From contig JAPLCP010000133.1 in assembly GCA_026392155.1 (NCBI GenBank), forward strand, positions 1 to 64,000: DNA of 64,000 bases, read 5' to 3'. Both the position numbers and the translations under genes were made by a program. The notes beneath the pieces were generated by a model, which worked only from the letters and a program-made list of their open reading frames with translations, made no database searches and was not told the DNA's origin. Source of the DNA: Armatimonadota bacterium. GTDB lineage: Bacteria > Armatimonadota > Armatimonadia > Armatimonadales > Armatimonadaceae. Positions 6,834 through 39,109 of this stretch are shown here, piece after piece; position 1 is the stretch's first letter, and every line of letters begins with the position of its first letter.

Positions 6834-8372
6834 TTAAACCAAACGTGCCCGCAGGTAGCCCAGTAAGTCGGCGATGGCGATGCGCTCTTGGGCCATCGAG
6901 TCTCTATCGCGCACGGTGACGGTGTCGAGAAGCTCCGTGCCACCGTCTTTGGACTGCCCGAGGGTGTCGTAGTCCACGGTGACACAGAACGGGGTTCCGG
7001 CCTCGTCTTGCCTGCGGTAGAGCTTGCCAATCGCTGCCGTATCGTCGTAGACCACGCGCATCCCGAGCTGGTTTTGCAGGTCTTTCTTGATCGCTTTGGC
7101 TTTATTGACGATATCGGGCTTGTTCTTGGCCAGTGGTAGAACCGCCACTTTGATCGGGGCCAGCGCGGGCTTGAGGCGCAGCACGACGCGGATATCGTTC
7201 TTTTCCGCATTGACCACTTCTTCGTCGTAGGCCTCGCAGAGCGCGGCCAGCACGCCACGGTCTACCCCAGCGGCGGGTTCGATCACGAAGGGGACAATGT
7301 GCTTGTTGGTCTCATGGTCGAAGTAGGTCAGCTTCTCGACGGAGTGCTCGTTGGGCATCACTTTCTCGCGGGTGTTATCTGAGAGAGTCAGCGTGTCTTG
7401 CTGGCGCGAGTGCGAGCCCAGGTCCCAGTCGGTGCGGTTGGCGATTCCCTCTAGCTCATCAAAGCCGAGCGTGGGGTAGTTGTAGAGAATGTCCACGGTG
7501 CGCTTGGAGTAGTGCGCTAGCTTGACGTGCTCAAACAAGTCGATCTTGGCGCGATCCAGCCCGACCACGTTTACCCACCAGTCAATATGATCCTGAATCC
7601 ACTCATCGTGCACTTTCTCGTCCTCGCCGGGCTTGACGAAGTACTCGATCTCCATCTGCTCCAGCTCACGGACACGGAAGATGAAGTTCTTGGGCGTGAT
7701 CTCATTTCGGAAAGACTTGCCCTGCTGCGCGATTCCAAACGGCAGCTTGCGGTTGGTGGAGTCCAAGACGTTCTTAAAATTAACGAACATTCCCTGCGCG
7801 GTCTCCGGGCGCAGATACGCAAAGTTCTCATCGTCGTTTACGGGCCCGACTTGGGTCTTGAACATTAAATTGAACGTACGCGGCTCGGTCCAGTCGCCCG
7901 GCTTGCCGTCCAGCGCGTCCACCACTTTCGCCGCCTTGAGCGCCGTCTGGGCTTTGCTTGGATCAGAGAGGAGCGCCTCGACAAAGATATCCATGTCCGG
8001 GTCACGCGTGATTCCAAAGCTCGCCGCAATCGCGTCCAGCGTCTCGGGCGTCTGCTCCTTGAGCAAGTGGTCGAACCGGTAGCGCTTCTTGGTGGTCTTG
8101 TTGTCCACCAGCGGGTCAGTGAAGCCTTTCTCGTGGCCGGAGTAGCGCAGCACATAGCGGTTGGTTAGTAGCGCCGTCTCGATGCCCTCCATATCGTCGC
8201 GCTCGTAGACATTGTGCTTCCACCAGAGCCGCTTAAGATTATTCTTCAGCTCGACACCCAGCGGGCCGTAGTCGTAGGTTCCCTGGAGGCCGCCGTAGAT
8301 CTCGGAGCCGGGGAAGATAAAACCGCGTCGTTTACAAAGAGAGATGATCTGATCAAGAGAAGTAGCAGGCAT
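6834..8372 (-). CDS. glyQS: Glycyl-tRNA synthetase, single-chain alpha2 type
   Basis: 512 residues, the length of the single-polypeptide class II GlyRS found in Thermus, Actinobacteria and archaea/eukaryotes, not the alpha2beta2 GlyQ/GlyS pair. The class II core is visible: [21 protein letters not shown] at the N-terminus, [17 protein letters not shown] with the motif 2 arginines, and a C-terminal anticodon-binding domain ending [10 protein letters not shown]. It charges tRNA-Gly in the cytoplasm. The start at 8372 is preceded by TAAAAT about 9 bases upstream on the minus strand, predicting a leader of only one or two bases. It follows the cytochrome gene by 15 bases. Confidence 0.97.
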
Positions 8373-32121: not shown

Positions 32122-34284
32122 ATGTTTGCAATATCGCCTACTCGGCCCAATATTGTCGTGATTCTCGCGGATGACCTTGGCTATGGAGATCTCAGCTGCT
32201 ACAACGCGGCCTCGAAGATTCCGACACCGAACCTGGATCGGCTTGCCCACGAGGGCGTGCGTGCCACGGATGCCCACGCGCCCGCCTCGGTGTGCTCCCC
32301 CACGCGCTATGCGATGCTCACGGGGCGCTATGCGTGGCGAGGGATTCTCAAGAATGGGGTGGTCGCTCCCTGGGGACCGTCTATTTTAGAGCGAGATCGC
32401 CTGAACGTGGCGCTGCTACTGCGGGGGCATGGCTACGCGACAGCGTGCTTTGGAAAGTGGCATCTGGGCTGGGGCTGGATAACCAAAGACGGTGCGCCAC
32501 CCAAAGGCGTCAACGCGGGGCCAACCAACGTGGATCTCACCAAGCGCATCGCGGAGGGGCCTACTGAGCGAGGCTTTGACGACTATTTTGGCGTGGACTT
32601 GCCCAACTTCCCGCCGTACTGCTTTATCGAGAACGACCGAACCGTGGGAGTGCCCACACGACACACCGAAAAAGACGGCCAGATCAACCGTCCCGGCCCG
32701 ATTCTCGAGGGCTGGAAGCTTGAGGATATCTTGCCTGAGGTGGGAAAACGCGCCGTGAGCTGGCTGGAGAAGGCGAGCCAGGACGCCGAAAAGCCTTTCT
32801 TTTTGTATCTGCCGCTCACCTCGCCCCACTTCCCGATTGTTCCCTCAAAAGAGTGGCAAGGGAAGACCAAAGCGGGGGCATACGGAGACTTTGTGGCCCA
32901 GACCGATGGTGTGGTGGGGGATGTGCTCGCAGCGCTCAAGCGGCTAGGGGTAGAGAAAAACACGCTGGTAATCTTCACCTCGGACAATGGCCCGGAGGTG
33001 GCAGGAGAAGTCGGAATCGGAGCCTACGAGCGGATTGGGACATTCGGTCACGATAGCCGAGGGGGACTGCGTGGGGTGAAGCGCGATATGTGGGAGGGCG
33101 GTCACCGTGTTCCGTTTCTCGCCCGCTGGCCTGGGAAAATCCGACCCGGATCGGTCTGCAAGGAGACGATCTGCCACGTGGACTTGATGGCCACTCTGGC
33201 TGGGGTTCTGGGAGCCGAGCTTCCCGAAAACGCCGCAGAAGACAGCGTGGATATGCTTCCCGCACTTCAGGGCAAACCGGGCATGCGCCGAAGTACCCCG
33301 ACCGTACATCAGGCCGCCTCCGGGAAGTTTGCAATCCGTCAGGGCGACTGGGTCTTTATCAACGCCCCCAGCGGCAACGACAATGGCAAGGGCGAGCCCG
33401 ACTCACTCCGCCCCAGCCCGCCACACGGTCAGCCCGGCGAGCTATTTCACCTCAAGGACGACCCTGCGGAGCGCGTCAACCGCTATGCCGAGCAACCAAG
33501 CCGGGTGCTGGAGCTTAAAGCGCTTCTGGAGCGCGTCAAGGCCGAGGGGCGCACGGTGCCGCCGTACCCGAAAAAACGCAGGGAGCTTGGGGTGGGCGCA
33601 AAACCTATCCCAGGTGCTCAGATACTCCTAGACGGCACACGGAAGACCCTCGACGAGAAATGGACCTACTGGCAAGGGCCTCGCTTTCGCTCATCGCTGC
33701 CGATTAAGTGGCCGATTGTTCAAGATCCCATAGACGGTGGCACGTGCGTACAGACCGACGATCCTGCCGCTGCCGGAGGGCTCTATGGGGCGGCGGATAT
33801 CGTCACGAAACAGACCTACCGAGACTTTCGGCTACATATCGAGTTCTGGATCGCAAGGCCGGGTGGCAATAGCGGCGTTTATCTGCAGAACCGTTATGAG
33901 ATCCAGATCTGCGATGGGGATCGGACGACGCACGGCCTCGGGGCGGTGATCAATGAGCAGCCTGCGCCCTATCATGCCTATCATGGCCTTGGCAAGTGGA
34001 ATGCCTATGATATTGTCTTTCGAGCGGCGCGCTTTAAAGAGGGCAAGCTGATAGAAAAAGCCCGCACGACGATCTATCTTAATGGCCAGAAAGCCCACAC
34101 GGATGTCCCGATTCAGCAAGTCTGGGGTGGGCCTGCCTCCGGGGTAGATGGTGGCAATGACAGTGGACGCGGGATCACGGACACACCGCAAGGGCTCAAG
34201 CTCCAGTGTGAGGGGCACGATGTGCGCTACCGAAACGCCTGGATCAAGCCCCTGAGCCTAGACAAGGTCAGCACGGATTTCTAG
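32122..34284 (+). CDS. Sulfatase fused to a C-terminal DUF1080 domain
   Basis: 720 residues. The N-terminal sulfatase has the metal Asp pair in VVILADDLGYGD (D17/D18) and the formylglycine motif C58-S-P-T-R62 (VCSPTRYAMLTGRY). FTSDNGPE and GGLRGVKRDMWEGGHRVPFLARWPG are also present; this domain ends near 470. A second domain, about 490-715, is DUF1080: IARPGGNSGVYLQNRYEIQI, YDIVFRAARF, RYRNAWIKPLS. No signal peptide is seen, whereas most such sulfatases are exported. A formylglycine-generating enzyme is not in the window. The protein probably desulfates a carbohydrate and acts on the same chain. Confidence 0.9.
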   Translation: MFAISPTRPNIVVILADDLGYGDLSCYNAASKIPTPNLDRLAHEGVRATDAHAPASVCSPTRYAMLTGRYAWRGILKNGVVAPWGPSILERDRLNVALLLRGHGYATACFGKWHLGWGWITKDGAPPKGVNAGPTNVDLTKRIAEGPTERGFDDYFGVDLPNFPPYCFIENDRTVGVPTRHTEKDGQINRPGPILEGWKLEDILPEVGKRAVSWLEKASQDAEKPFFLYLPLTSPHFPIVPSKEWQGKTKAGAYGDFVAQTDGVVGDVLAALKRLGVEKNTLVIFTSDNGPEVAGEVGIGAYERIGTFGHDSRGGLRGVKRDMWEGGHRVPFLARWPGKIRPGSVCKETICHVDLMATLAGVLGAELPENAAEDSVDMLPALQGKPGMRRSTPTVHQAASGKFAIRQGDWVFINAPSGNDNGKGEPDSLRPSPPHGQPGELFHLKDDPAERVNRYAEQPSRVLELKALLERVKAEGRTVPPYPKKRRELGVGAKPIPGAQILLDGTRKTLDEKWTYWQGPRFRSSLPIKWPIVQDPIDGGTCVQTDDPAAAGGLYGAADIVTKQTYRDFRLHIEFWIARPGGNSGVYLQNRYEIQICDGDRTTHGLGAVINEQPAPYHAYHGLGKWNAYDIVFRAARFKEGKLIEKARTTIYLNGQKAHTDVPIQQVWGGPASGVDGGNDSGRGITDTPQGLKLQCEGHDVRYRNAWIKPLSLDKVSTDF

Positions 34285-35243
34285 GCACGTGCCCAGAGGC
34301 TCTCTAGCGGGCCACGGGGGAAACGGCGAAACCAGAGGAGGGTGAGCGGGAGTGCAAGGAGAAGATAGCCAAAGTAAGCCAGAAGCCCGGTACGCACGGG
34401 CCAGTCTTCATCGGGGTAGAGCAGGCGTAGTGGGGCGAAGACGGCGACAATGTGCAGGATGTAGTGCGTGAGCGAGGCGCGTCCAAGCAAGGCAAGCGGC
34501 TGTGTGATCTTTGGCAAGCCGCCTGCACTCTCCCACCAGAGCAGACCCGCGATCAATGCGGCAGCGCTACTTCCAATGCGCAGTAAAAACGGCAGTGTGG
34601 TGGGAATCCAAGTCGCGGGGCCAAGCGATTTCTCCCAGAGCTGCGTGATCAGGGCGACACTCAGGGCACCCCAGAAACAACGACGTATCCGTGTGGGTGT
34701 CAGGCCCGCTCCCAAGACGGCGCTCATTCCCAGCAGAGGCAGCGCCAGCCAGGGCAGAAGCGGGTAGTTTCCATCCAAGAGAAGTGCCCTTAGGGTCACC
34801 GCCCCAAAAGCATGATCCGCAAGGTGACTGCCATCGTCCTGCCAGTCCGTTGCGATAAAGTGCCCGAAGCGAAGCTGGCTTAGTGGTGTGGCAATCAGAA
34901 CCAGAACAAACACGACCCCGATCACGCGCGGGCCTTTCTTCCCGCGCCCAAGCCCAACGCCGAGCATCATCATCAGAGCCAGCGGGACGAGAACCTCCGT
35001 CGGCCAAACAAAATAATGCAGCACTGCCCCAAAAACTGCCAGCATCAGAGCGCGGCGTATAAACTTTATTGGCTTGTTTGTACGCCGCATCTGGAGCGCC
35101 CAGGCCATTCCCGCAAGCAGAAAGAAAAGCGCCGCCGCGCGGCCTTCTAGCACACTCGCAAGCTTGGAGCCGACGAAGTGCATGTAGATCATTCCCAAGA
35201 CGGCGACTCCACGGGCGACATCAAGGGCGACGAGGCGGCTCAC
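34281..35243 (-). CDS. DUF418/acyltransferase-like membrane protein
   Basis: 320 residues with about nine to ten membrane helices. The N-terminus RLVALDVARGVAVLGMIYMH resembles the start of DUF418 and HGSNAT-type membrane acyltransferases. The C-terminal WFRRFPRGPLESLWARA matches the DUF418 tail. It starts at GTG 35243, overlapping the stop of the NRPS-like gene by 4 bases (GTGA), so it is translationally coupled to it. The long in-frame extension to 35702 is Arg/Pro/Ser-rich shadow sequence of the NRPS gene. A role in modifying or exporting the NRPS product is an inference. Confidence 0.75.
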   Translation of the reverse strand: MSRLVALDVARGVAVLGMIYMHFVGSKLASVLEGRAAALFFLLAGMAWALQMRRTNKPIKFIRRALMLAVFGAVLHYFVWPTEVLVPLALMMMLGVGLGRGKKGPRVIGVVFVLVLIATPLSQLRFGHFIATDWQDDGSHLADHAFGAVTLRALLLDGNYPLLPWLALPLLGMSAVLGAGLTPTRIRRCFWGALSVALITQLWEKSLGPATWIPTTLPFLLRIGSSAAALIAGLLWWESAGGLPKITQPLALLGRASLTHYILHIVAVFAPLRLLYPDEDWPVRTGLLAYFGYLLLALPLTLLWFRRFPRGPLESLWARA

Positions 35244-38200
35244 CGGGTGGGGGCTCCTTCGTAGCGCTGGTTCGGAAGTAGAAATTCGTCTTTCATGATC
35301 ACACTGTGCGGCGCGATATAGGTTCCCTCTCCGATGACAGCTCCGTAGAGGGGGACGGTGTTGTTGGCTACGGTTGCGTTCGCACCGATTCGGACTTTGG
35401 CAAGCTTCAGCACCCGATCCTCGAAGGTATGGGCTTGGAAGGCCGCTGTCACCGTGGCACCGTCGCCGATCTCGATCATGTCGGGGTCTACCACTTGTGA
35501 GAAGCCACTGCCCAGCACCACGCCGCGCCCGAGCGTCAGGCCCATCGCGCGGAGATACCACGTGAGCATGGGAGTACCTTCGAGCGCGGTGAGCGTCCCG
35601 CGGGCATAGACTCCCCAAGCGACATAGAGAAAGTCCCAGCGGCTGCACCAGCACGACCAGAGCGCATGCGTCCCCGGGCGAGCGCGACCCAGCAGAAGCC
35701 ACTTGAGCGCTAAGATCGCCAGGCAGAGCACTGCCGCTCCGGCAAAGGCGAGCAGTGGTGCAGCCCAGGCGTGGTCTCTCAGCTTCCGTAAGCTCTCCGC
35801 GACAACGAGCACGGGAAGCACCGGCAAGGTGAAGCGGAGTATTTCCCAGAATAAGCGGTTTAGATAGCGAAGTAAGCTTGGGTTGTGGGTAAGCTCGCGA
35901 TCGTAGGCAACGATCTCACGGTGCGGCAGCGCAAAAGGCGGGTGCCCGAACCAAGACGTCCCGCTTGCCATGTACATATCATCGGCGACGGTGCAGACGC
36001 CCAGCAGAATATCGTCGGGTAAGTGTTGGCCCCCAGCGACGACCACGTGGTTGCCTAGAAAAACATTGGTGCCGATGGTGACTTTTGAAAGCGTCACCGT
36101 GCCGCGATGCACTCTTGGGCCACCCAGATAGATTCCATCGGCAAAAAACGTCTCCGGTCCAATCTCAATTAGCTCGGGGATGACATCAATAATCGTGCTA
36201 ATCTCGCAGCTTCGTCCCACACGCATCCCTGCCGCCCGGAGCCAGAGCGGCCAAAAGAGCGCGCCACTGAGCCACTCGTTCGCAGAGTCTACTAAGCCCG
36301 CCTTGAGCCAGAGGGGAATATAGGCCAGGCTCCAGCGCGAGAGCACACCCTCCGAGACGTGACCGAGGGCGCGGACGGCAAGGGCTTCCAGTAGGAGCGT
36401 GAGCGGCAAGGCGAGGGTCAGCACGAGGAGATAGGCTACGAGCCCACTCTCCTGCCCCACCCAGACCACGGCCCCCAGCGTGAGCAGCTCTAGGGGCAGC
36501 GCAAGCATCGCCCAGAGAGCGCTCTGCGCGAGTAGCAGCGCAAGGCTATAGGCCAGCGGCGAGAGGATGGGTTTTGTTTGGGTGATATTCGGTACGGGCG
36601 GTGCGTGTCCAGCGGGAGTGGCAGGAATGCCGTCCCAGTGCTCGCCCGCCGGAATCGTCTTGCCTGCGGGCAGTGAGGAGAGCGCGGCGAGAGAGGCTCC
36701 CGCTTCTAAACTTCCGCCCGGTGCAACACCCGCCCGGACATCGAGCGTAGCGCCTGTGCCGAGAGAGATGGGGCCGATGACAAGCTGACGGTTCTCCAGC
36801 TCGACGAGACGAAGAGACGCGTCCTGACTCACCGTGACATCGTCCCCGATATCGAGCAAGTCCCAGCCACCCTGAGTCAGATCCACGCCGCGATGCAAGT
36901 GCACGCGCTGCCCGATCCGCGACCCCAGTGCCCGAAGCGCCATGCACTGAAACTCAGTTCCGACGAGCACCGGCCAGGGAATCAGTCGTGCCGTCTGCAC
37001 CACGATCCAGTGTCTCAGATAGAAATCCCCCCAGACCGGCTCACGGCGCGGGGTGTACTTGCCGATCAGCAGGCGCTTCACCAAGACTGCAAAAAACACG
37101 GCTAGAGGCGTGTAGAGCGCCAGCCCCAGAAAAAGCAAGAGTGGCGTGATGAGAATCACCGTCATCAGTCCCAGACGCGAGAGCAGTGTGGGGAGAAGCT
37201 TGAAGAAGCCGCCGTAGGCCACAAAGGAAGCCAGAGTGAGCTCCAGCAGAAGCCAGAGGCTCTGAAGAACCCCTGTGTGCCGCTCGCCGTCTGTGTCCAG
37301 CGGCAGGTACGCTTGCTGCTGCGTCTGTTGAGAGCCATACCCAGAGGAGGGCAATGCCACTTGTGACACTCTCTGCGCCAGCGCGGCAACCGTGCGGGCT
37401 TCGTAGAGATCGCGAACGGTTAGGGATGCCGTGGCGGCATCTGTGCGCAGGCGTGAGATCAGCTGCGCTGCCTGGAGCGACGTGCCCCCGAGATCAAGGA
37501 AGAAATCTTCGTCGAGGGAGAGCGCTTCCGAGAGTAGCAGCGTCTCTTGAAATGTTGCGAGTAGCGATTTTTCCAGCAGGGTACGCGGCGCAACCATCTC
37601 GCGCTCTAAGCGAGGCACTACGCGTCGGAGCGTGGGGAGGCTCTCACGCTTGAGCTTGCCCCCGACGCTTTTGGGTAGCTCCGTGAGCACACCAAAGAGC
37701 GCAGGGATCATGTAGGAGGGCAGTGCCTCACGGAGCACGGCCTTGAGTTTGTCGAAGTCTGGCGGCTGAGTCGCATCTGTTGGGACGATAAACGCGACCA
37801 GATCGTTGCCTTCGTTCTGGACACAGCACGCCGCCTCGCGCACGCCCTCGCACTGGGCCAGGTAGGTCTCGATTGCCTCCAGCTCGATCCGGTAGCCACG
37901 GAGTTTTACTTGGGAATCAAGCCGCCCGTGGTAGTGAAACGCGCCGCTCTCGGGGTCACGGTGGACGAGATCGCCCGTTCGGTAGAGCCGTCCGAGTGTG
38001 GGATGCGAGAAAAACTTCTCCGCCGTCAGCTCCGGGCGTGCGTGGTAGCCCCGCGCCAGCCCAATTCCTCCGAGGCAGAGCTCGCCCGAAACTCCATCAA
38101 TAACTTCGTTGAGCGCACTATCCAGCACCCAGGCTTGCAAGCCTGGCACGGGCGTGCCAATGGTAATCGGCTCCCCGGCCAGAATCTCGCCGCGCAGGGC

Positions 38201-39109
38201 CGTGACCGTGCACTCCGTGGGGCCGTAGCCATTGACCAGCCGTCGCCCCCGCGCCCAGCGATCCGCGATATCACGTGGTAGCGCCTCGCCGCCCACGTAG
38301 AGGAGCTTGAGTAAAGGCAGGGACTCTTCTGGGTTTTCGCAACCGGTCGTTCGTAGCAGTGTGGGAGGTGGACAGAGCACGGTGATGCGCTCGCGCTGGA
38401 GCCAGCCTACCAAGTCCGGCCCCAGCCGCGCTGCGTCGTCGTCGAGGGCCACGACCGTCGCACCCGATGCCAGCGCCAGCCAGATTTCTTCCACGGACGA
38501 ATCGTAGGCAGGCGACGAGCCCTGCGCCACCCGGTCACCCGGCCCTAGTCCAAACTCGACCAAGTCAGACTGCACGAGATTAACAATGCTCTGGTGCTCT
38601 ATCAAGACGCCTTTGGGCTTGCCTGTCGTGCCCGAGGTGTAGATGACGTAGGCCAGCGCATCTTCCCCCCTAACCCCCGCCCAGCGGGGGGACGATAAGG
38701 AAGGGGCCACGTTTTGGGAAATGTCAAAGACTTTTGTCGGGAACGCGCCTCGCTCGGCGCGGGCCTGGCCGTGGGTGTTGGTGAGGAGCAGGACGGCGCT
38801 GGAGTCTCGGAGAATCTCGCGCACTTGCTCATCGGGAAACGACGGGTCAATGCAGACATACGCTGCCCCTGCGCTCAGCACGGCAAGCTGGGAGACATAG
38901 AGCCGCTCGGTATCGCGGCCAAGCAGGATCGCGACAATGCACTCACCCGAGACACTGGGCGGGAGCTGCGCCCGGAGCGCCTCGACTTCCTGCGCCAGTT
39001 CGGCATAGGTGAGTGTGCGCCGCTCAGGGCGGGTCAGGCTGGGTGGGATATCTATCGCAGCTGCCTCAGGCCAGGTGCGGGCGGCGCACTCGAAGAGCTC
39101 GTGGAGCAT
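35240..39109 (-). CDS. Orphan Pls-type NRPS: adenylation-PCP-membrane/hexapeptide-repeat protein
   Basis: 1289 residues. The adenylation domain (about 1-500) has A3 YTSGTTGKPKG (157-167), A5 YGPTECT, A7 YRTGDL, A8 GRLDSQVKLRGYRIE and the A10 Lys (GGKLKRE). A peptidyl carrier domain has the phosphopantetheine Ser in LGGTSL (about 541). From about 615, membrane helices alternate with three left-handed hexapeptide-repeat segments, the last ending ANATVANNTVPLYGAVIGEG. This matches the NRPS terminal-domain family related to epsilon-poly-lysine synthetase. There is no condensation or thioesterase domain. A palindromic repeat encodes residues about 136-150, just before A3. It follows the SASA gene by 8 bases. 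Confidence 0.9.
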   Translation of the reverse strand: MLHELFECAARTWPEAAAIDIPPSLTRPERRTLTYAELAQEVEALRAQLPPSVSGECIVAILLGRDTERLYVSQLAVLSAGAAYVCIDPSFPDEQVREILRDSSAVLLLTNTHGQARAERGAFPTKVFDISQNVAPSLSSPRWAGVRGEDALAYVIYTSGTTGKPKGVLIEHQSIVNLVQSDLVEFGLGPGDRVAQGSSPAYDSSVEEIWLALASGATVVALDDDAARLGPDLVGWLQRERITVLCPPPTLLRTTGCENPEESLPLLKLLYVGGEALPRDIADRWARGRRLVNGYGPTECTVTALRGEILAGEPITIGTPVPGLQAWVLDSALNEVIDGVSGELCLGGIGLARGYHARPELTAEKFFSHPTLGRLYRTGDLVHRDPESGAFHYHGRLDSQVKLRGYRIELEAIETYLAQCEGVREAACCVQNEGNDLVAFIVPTDATQPPDFDKLKAVLREALPSYMIPALFGVLTELPKSVGGKLKRESLPTLRRVVPRLEREMVAPRTLLEKSLLATFQETLLLSEALSLDEDFFLDLGGTSLQAAQLISRLRTDAATASLTVRDLYEARTVAALAQRVSQVALPSSGYGSQQTQQQAYLPLDTDGERHTGVLQSLWLLLELTLASFVAYGGFFKLLPTLLSRLGLMTVILITPLLLFLGLALYTPLAVFFAVLVKRLLIGKYTPRREPVWGDFYLRHWIVVQTARLIPWPVLVGTEFQCMALRALGSRIGQRVHLHRGVDLTQGGWDLLDIGDDVTVSQDASLRLVELENRQLVIGPISLGTGATLDVRAGVAPGGSLEAGASLAALSSLPAGKTIPAGEHWDGIPATPAGHAPPVPNITQTKPILSPLAYSLALLLAQSALWAMLALPLELLTLGAVVWVGQESGLVAYLLVLTLALPLTLLLEALAVRALGHVSEGVLSRWSLAYIPLWLKAGLVDSANEWLSGALFWPLWLRAAGMRVGRSCEISTIIDVIPELIEIGPETFFADGIYLGGPRVHRGTVTLSKVTIGTNVFLGNHVVVAGGQHLPDDILLGVCTVADDMYMASGTSWFGHPPFALPHREIVAYDRELTHNPSLLRYLNRLFWEILRFTLPVLPVLVVAESLRKLRDHAWAAPLLAFAGAAVLCLAILALKWLLLGRARPGTHALWSCWCSRWDFLYVAWGVYARGTLTALEGTPMLTWYLRAMGLTLGRGVVLGSGFSQVVDPDMIEIGDGATVTAAFQAHTFEDRVLKLAKVRIGANATVANNTVPLYGAVIGEGTYIAPHSVIMKDEFLLPNQRYEGAPTR
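38662..38708. repeat. In-frame palindromic G/C-rich repeat, copy 2 (in the adenylation domain)
   Basis: The plus strand reads TTCCCCCCTAACCCCCGCC, with an inner stem CCCCCGC (38674-38680) / GCGGGGG (38684-38690). The gene reads the other strand, giving SLSSPRWAGVRGED between the DIS strand and the A3 core. Its left arm matches copies at 22714 and 47875. Confidence 0.75.

Follow-up and report, generated by a model that had tools for sequence, protein, structure and literature searches.

A divergent Pls/PosA-type membrane synthetase in Armatimonadota, its cationic substrate pocket and S-methylmethionine as a tentative building block

Which amino acid is activated, and what is made from it, by a nonribosomal peptide synthetase (NRPS)-like enzyme that joins a single adenylation domain to a single carrier and a membrane domain is the question raised by a locus of an Armatimonadota bacterium (NCBI GenBank assembly GCA_026392155.1). 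The window, that is, the whole stretch of DNA that was analysed, comprises 64,000 nucleotides (contig JAPLCP010000133.1, positions 1 to 64,000 of the forward strand) and contains a synthetase gene coupled to a gene for a membrane acyltransferase-like protein, for which a first-pass annotation had proposed a lysine- or ornithine-type homopolymer as a possible product. Here, we place this synthetase in a clade of single-module membrane enzymes predicted to act on a bulky cationic alpha-amino acid, and often encoded next to a small SET-domain protein that makes S-methyl-L-methionine the leading, and still tentative, candidate substrate. The window's genome is referred to as G000 and its congener as G008; the other labels in G or L denote the genomes and loci compared. 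The features of the two genes are the following.

35240..39109, minus strand: NRPS-like synthetase of 1289 amino acids, with an adenylation and a carrier domain followed by a terminal membrane domain of the Pls/PosA type (open reading frame, Pfam, TIGR02353, relatives at 42-59% identity)
37631..39109, minus strand: adenylation domain, residues 1-493 (Pfam PF00501/PF13193)
38201..38503, minus strand: substrate-pocket segment, D203 S204 E207 C246 Y271 G273 G294 V302 T303 (plus K485), code DSECYGGVTK (alignment)
37367..37564, minus strand: carrier (thiolation) domain, phosphopantetheine serine in GGTSL, motif at residue 541 (PF00550, 42 bits)
37067..37294, minus strand: first transmembrane hairpin of the terminal domain (AlphaFold model, helices 7-47 and 49-82)
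36605..36919, minus strand: first left-handed beta-helix (hexapeptide) segment (terminal-domain profile and AlphaFold model)
36368..36559, minus strand: second transmembrane hairpin (AlphaFold model, helices 252-284 and 290-315)
35948..36229, minus strand: second left-handed beta-helix segment (terminal-domain profile and AlphaFold model)
35690..35875, minus strand: third transmembrane hairpin (AlphaFold model, helices 480-511 and 515-541)
35243..35542, minus strand: third left-handed beta-helix segment (PF00132 at residues 1239-1271, profile, AlphaFold model)
34281..35243, minus strand: DUF418/HGSNAT-type multi-pass acyltransferase-like protein, 320 amino acids, GTG start (Pfam)

The first-pass annotation described a single adenylation domain, a single carrier and a membrane region with three hexapeptide segments, condensation and thioesterase domains being absent, and this anatomy proved to be right. 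In particular, Pfam matches AMP-binding at residues 7-356 (225 bits), AMP-binding_C, and PP-binding at residues 516-581 (42 bits), together with a single, weak hexapeptide match, and detects neither condensation nor thioesterase domains in the 1289 residues. A profile built from the terminal domain aligns with left-handed beta-helix proteins along three distinct stretches, and the AlphaFold model (predicted local distance difference test, pLDDT, 93.3; predicted template modelling score, pTM, 0.92) displays a threefold repeat of transmembrane hairpin, helices and beta-helix, whose top fold matches are hexapeptide acetyltransferases. This is the layout of the cationic homopolyamino acid (CHPA) synthetases of the Pls/PosA type, in which an adenylation and a carrier domain are followed by three transmembrane pairs with three intervening segments. 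With PosA, the delta-poly-L-ornithine synthetase of Acinetobacter baumannii (PMC10522769; PDB 8G95-8G98), and Pls, the epsilon-poly-L-lysine synthetase (adenylation domain, PDB 7WEW), the window protein shares the single adenylation and carrier domains, the three hairpins and three beta-helices, the acid at pocket position 239 and the lack of condensation and thioesterase domains; it differs from them in its pocket, DSECYGGVTK, in the replacement of the PosA threonine and serine contacts and in a terminal domain that scores under the family cut-off. In fact, NCBIfam TIGR02353 (Pls/PosA family) matches residues 636-1287 with 360 bits and does not reach the cut-off of 423, and for this reason the synthetase ranks, on its sequence, as a divergent relative and not as a curated member of the family; a Pls-type enzyme of the same phylum scores 632 bits. 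The terminal domain also bears a clade-specific motif with two cysteines, WSCWCSRWDF (residues 1151-1160; 35630-35659), at which Pls-type members differ. Furthermore, a variable loop of the adenylation domain contains, in frame, a palindrome resembling repetitive extragenic palindromes, CCCCCCGCTGGGCGGGGGTTAGGGGGG (38665-38691), present in 61 copies in the genome (the window site and 60 more), several of them as inverted pairs about 50 bp apart; at this site the congener G008 carries a different, longer insertion.

The synthetase is neither isolated nor decayed. Eighty relatives, 42-59% identical to it and nearly all alignable from end to end, were found in Actinomycetota, Planctomycetota, Verrucomicrobiota, Acidobacteriota, Pseudomonadota and other phyla, and the tree groups 89 rows in a single clade with a support of 100, on the other side of which stand 12 Pls-type enzymes from the window's phylum. 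As the outgroup was made of Armatimonadota Pls-type enzymes only, and not of Pls from S. albulus or PosA from A. baumannii, the clade is placed as separate from, and sister to, the Pls-type enzymes sampled. None of the 120 columns of at least 95% clade conservation in the adenylation-carrier region is changed in the window protein, and 104 of the 106 such columns in the terminal domain are kept. In comparison with G008, whose synthetase is 79% identical, the synthetase has a ratio of nonsynonymous to synonymous substitution rates (dN/dS) of 0.164 and the coupled gene one of 0.168, indicating purifying selection on both; this selection and the spread of relatives over many phyla confirm, at the level of sequence, that the synthetase is not a chance observation. 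G000 also holds two phosphopantetheinyl transferase genes, and on its contig C218 (L005, L140) a large NRPS frame of 2422 residues lies about 2 kb from a phosphopantetheinyl transferase.

With regard to the substrate, the residues D235, S236 and E239, aligned by hand in the first-pass annotation, were read correctly, and the full code is DSECYGGVTK, in which position 278, counted against the GrsA PheA sequence, is C246. The code is common to 84 of the 93 full-code clade members, a set in which a few records are counted twice. Since an acid occupies position 239 or 322 in 93/93, the side chain of the substrate is predicted to be cationic, as had been supposed from the acidic 239, and because D235 is kept in the window pocket the substrate is predicted to be an alpha-amino acid; no catalytic loss in the adenylation core and no sign of a non-basic substrate were found. 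In a Gemmataceae group Glu239 is replaced by Ala or Ser, and an Asp is present at 322 instead; six planctomycete loci of the Gemmata group (L014, L026, L030, L043, L056 and L058) have the acid at 322, in three of them replacing that at 239, and no adjacent SET gene.

Among cationic substrates, those of the lysine and ornithine type appear disfavoured. The window code lies outside the known diamino-acid classes (lysine, ornithine, 2,4-diaminobutyrate/2,3-diaminopropionate, beta-lysine), and the Pls-like members of the same phylum, in the sister clade, have the different, lysine-like codes DAESIGTVIK and DGESLGTVGK. Compared with the PosA pocket residues as given in PMC10522769, the contacts Thr322 and Ser331 are Gly and Thr in the window protein. 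In addition, the code is identical, over ten residues, to that of Bdello_A, a CHPA homologue from Bdellovibrionales which showed no preference among the four diamino acids tried and had a modest activity with L-arginine, its authors suggesting a larger analogue as the substrate and linking position 236 to substrate chain length (PMC10522769). A protein with the same code, L064 (Bdellovibrionales), stands at the base of the window clade and may be Bdello_A itself; it has no adjacent SET gene, and an aspartate-carbamoyltransferase-like gene (6910-7986; TIGR00670 at cut-off) overlaps the start of its synthetase by 4 nt. The homopolymer proposed in the first-pass annotation is thus unsupported and a less likely product.

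A more specific indication comes from the relatives. When the flanking genes were clustered across the clade, a single partner stood out strongly, a small SET-domain protein encoded directly upstream on the same strand; the clusters ranking after it consisted of scattered housekeeping genes, and no further partner was conserved. In a profile search the SET gene is adjacent in 47 of the 85 members with testable upstream DNA and in 0/12 Pls-type members, so that the clade is set apart from these by a partner present in about half of it. Between the SET stop codon and the start of the conserved part of the synthetase lie 47 nt in the median, with 39 of the 45 measured gaps within 80 nt, and in the congener G008, as well as in G043, G092 and G093, the genes stand in the row SET-synthetase-DUF418. 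Within the phylum (291 genomes) the SET family occurs in 11 genomes, all of them among the 15 that have a clade synthetase (Fisher p 5e-17 by genome and 4e-10 by genus, with relatedness beyond the genus uncorrected), and in the order of G308 (295 genomes) the sole genome with a clade synthetase is also the sole one with a strong SET-family match, about 14 kb apart. The divergences of the two proteins are correlated (Spearman 0.64; Mantel 0/999), and in four members where the SET gene is not adjacent, a strong match is present at another place in the genome. In a member of the window's family (L126, G013:C600) the SET gene lies off the synthetase contig and contains a TAA inside the matching region, which may reflect premature termination or decay.

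The SET partners score above the cut-off of PF00856 and possess the NHxC motif and the active-site tyrosine, with H75, C77, Y104 and E108 invariant. By family profile their first match is BurB (69.5 bits), with histone enzymes and lysine methyltransferases at 50 bits at most, and BurB is also the top structural match of the predicted fold. Furthermore, an [ST]xQ...H segment and an [ST]TE motif after the active-site tyrosine are common to the clade SET proteins and BurB and missing from most other bacterial SET proteins in these genomes, a signature picked after viewing the alignment; two Sphingomonas loci (L130, L131) encode membrane proteins, about 380-400 residues long, whose SET-like domain, at the C-terminus, is not BurB-like by this signature. 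BurB is a SET-domain methionine S-methyltransferase yielding S-methylmethionine, which in the bur pathway is converted to dimethylsulfoniopropionate (DMSP) and loaded by BurA-A, an adenylation domain without D235 (PMC12542666; PMC7496086; PDB 9L4T, 9L4V). The partner is kin to BurB and, on profile and model, a predicted methionine S-methyltransferase. In both systems the SET gene goes with an NRPS-type adenylation domain having a sulfonium or cation pocket; the bur system differs in its NRPS-polyketide synthase architecture, compared with the Pls type here, and in that BurA-A loads a decarboxylated acid. As D235 is kept in the window protein and lost in BurA-A, an alpha-amino acid, for instance S-methylmethionine itself, would be the expected substrate.

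On these grounds the clade is read as single-module membrane synthetases for a bulky cationic alpha-amino acid, with S-methyl-L-methionine made by the SET partner as the leading candidate, and to this reading, which remains somewhat below even odds, we give a probability of about 0.42. The BurB-like protein, encoded upstream in about half of the members, would methylate methionine to S-methyl-L-methionine; the adenylation domain would pick this cationic alpha-amino acid, bulkier than ornithine or lysine, and load it on its own carrier domain; and the threefold beta-helix/transmembrane domain would then make alpha-amide bonds at the membrane. In G000 the building block would come from another source, because a SET gene is undetectable there. 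A broader version, in which a widespread pathway has SET proteins S-methylating methionine and Pls-type synthetases polymerising it to a cationic poly(S-methylmethionine)-like polymer, the window's synthetase descending from it after loss of the methyltransferase, is doubtful as a whole.

In Armatimonadota a further step may be added by the coupled gene. The overlap GTGA between synthetase stop and DUF418 gene start, described in the first-pass annotation, is literal at 35243-35240, and the coupling is real and recurs in G008, G043, G092, G093 and G013, being seen, among the loci compared, in this phylum only. The protein resembles both HGSNAT and DUF418 (YeiB) proteins, whose Pfam models match above cut-off (DUF418 41.6, cut-off 23.6; HGSNAT_cat 39.8, cut-off 22), and it differs from them in being coupled to a synthetase and fused to no other domain; it probably transfers an acyl group across the membrane to a free amine on the product, capping or decorating it. 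In L099/L071, L096 and L097 the DUF418 gene is followed by a probable 4'-phosphopantetheinyl transferase gene, assigned by eye with a weak family match or none.

Several points weigh against S-methylmethionine. The window's own genome, 96.6% complete, has no SET gene by PF00856 or by the family profile, so that the partner was invisible in the first-pass annotation; the gene is lost or lies within the unassembled few percent. The chief weakness is that no adjacent SET gene is found in 38 of the 85 testable members, window included, most of which have the same code. The SET partner is only about 25% identical to BurB, and no adenylation domain loading S-methylmethionine is known in the literature found. 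Moreover, since S-methylmethionine has no side-chain amine, the isopeptide chemistry of the family would be excluded and an alpha-amide polymer or a simple transfer would be needed. Lastly, arginine is the sole substrate with experimental support for the code DSECYGGVTK, and the activity published could be the true preference. Decay of the synthetase after SET loss was considered separately and is rejected in view of the intact adenylation-carrier columns, the 104/106 terminal-domain columns and a dN/dS of 0.16. Members without the SET gene could draw on an alternative supply; for MmtN, reported at genus level from Novosphingobium (PMC13360808), a PF05175 search returned many generic methyltransferases only.

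Among the alternatives, it is unlikely, though worth keeping in view, that arginine, or an amino acid derived from it, is what the clade activates for an arginine-type product, the SET protein serving just some of the lineages in tailoring or regulation. The Bdello_A results and the absence of an adjacent SET gene in the basal lineages, Bdellovibrionota and Myxococcota, speak for it; however, the activity is modest by the authors' own word, isopeptide bonds would need an ordinary side-chain amine that arginine does not have, and a tight, co-inherited BurB-like partner would be left unexplained. That the substrate is lysine, N-methylated by the SET partner when free, carrier-bound or in the polymer to give methyl-lysine units, is improbable: most SET proteins characterised so far methylate lysine, and Glu239 with a small residue at 236, the position tied to chain length in PMC10522769, suits a lysine-sized cation, but both profile and fold put BurB before all lysine methyltransferases, and lysine-like codes sit in the sister clade with no SET neighbour. 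Still less is to be said for a classical diamino-acid homopolymer of the epsilon-polylysine or delta-polyornithine type modified by the DUF418 protein, as the shared layout, Glu239 and the terminal-domain residues kept in common with Pls-type members are opposed by the indifference of the identical code to four diamino acids in the published experiment, the lost PosA contacts and the sub-threshold TIGR02353 score. Equally remote is an enzyme that does not polymerise but places one cationic aminoacyl group on an acceptor, either lipid or glycan, to be acylated next by the DUF418 protein; for this a terminal-domain fold resembling sugar and maltose O-acetyltransferases and clade-specific residues such as WSCWCSRWDF may be cited, but about 50 terminal-domain residues are common to the clade and the Pls-type outgroup, the characterised family members are polymerases and no sugar or lipid gene is conserved beside the clade synthetases.

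The real substrate of the DSECYGGVTK synthetases is left open in PMC10522769, and the SET partner, apparently absent from the discussion there, names a testable one. If S-methylmethionine is loaded, a sulfonium amino acid would join the substrates known for adenylation domains, natural cationic polymers would gain a new kind, and the BurB-type methionine S-methyltransferases, described in a 2026 review as narrow in distribution (PMC13360808), would extend to several phyla. In the open-access literature no paper was found that connects SET domains with Pls-type synthetases, and even if the S-methylmethionine reading is wrong, their pairing would still be a new two-gene system.

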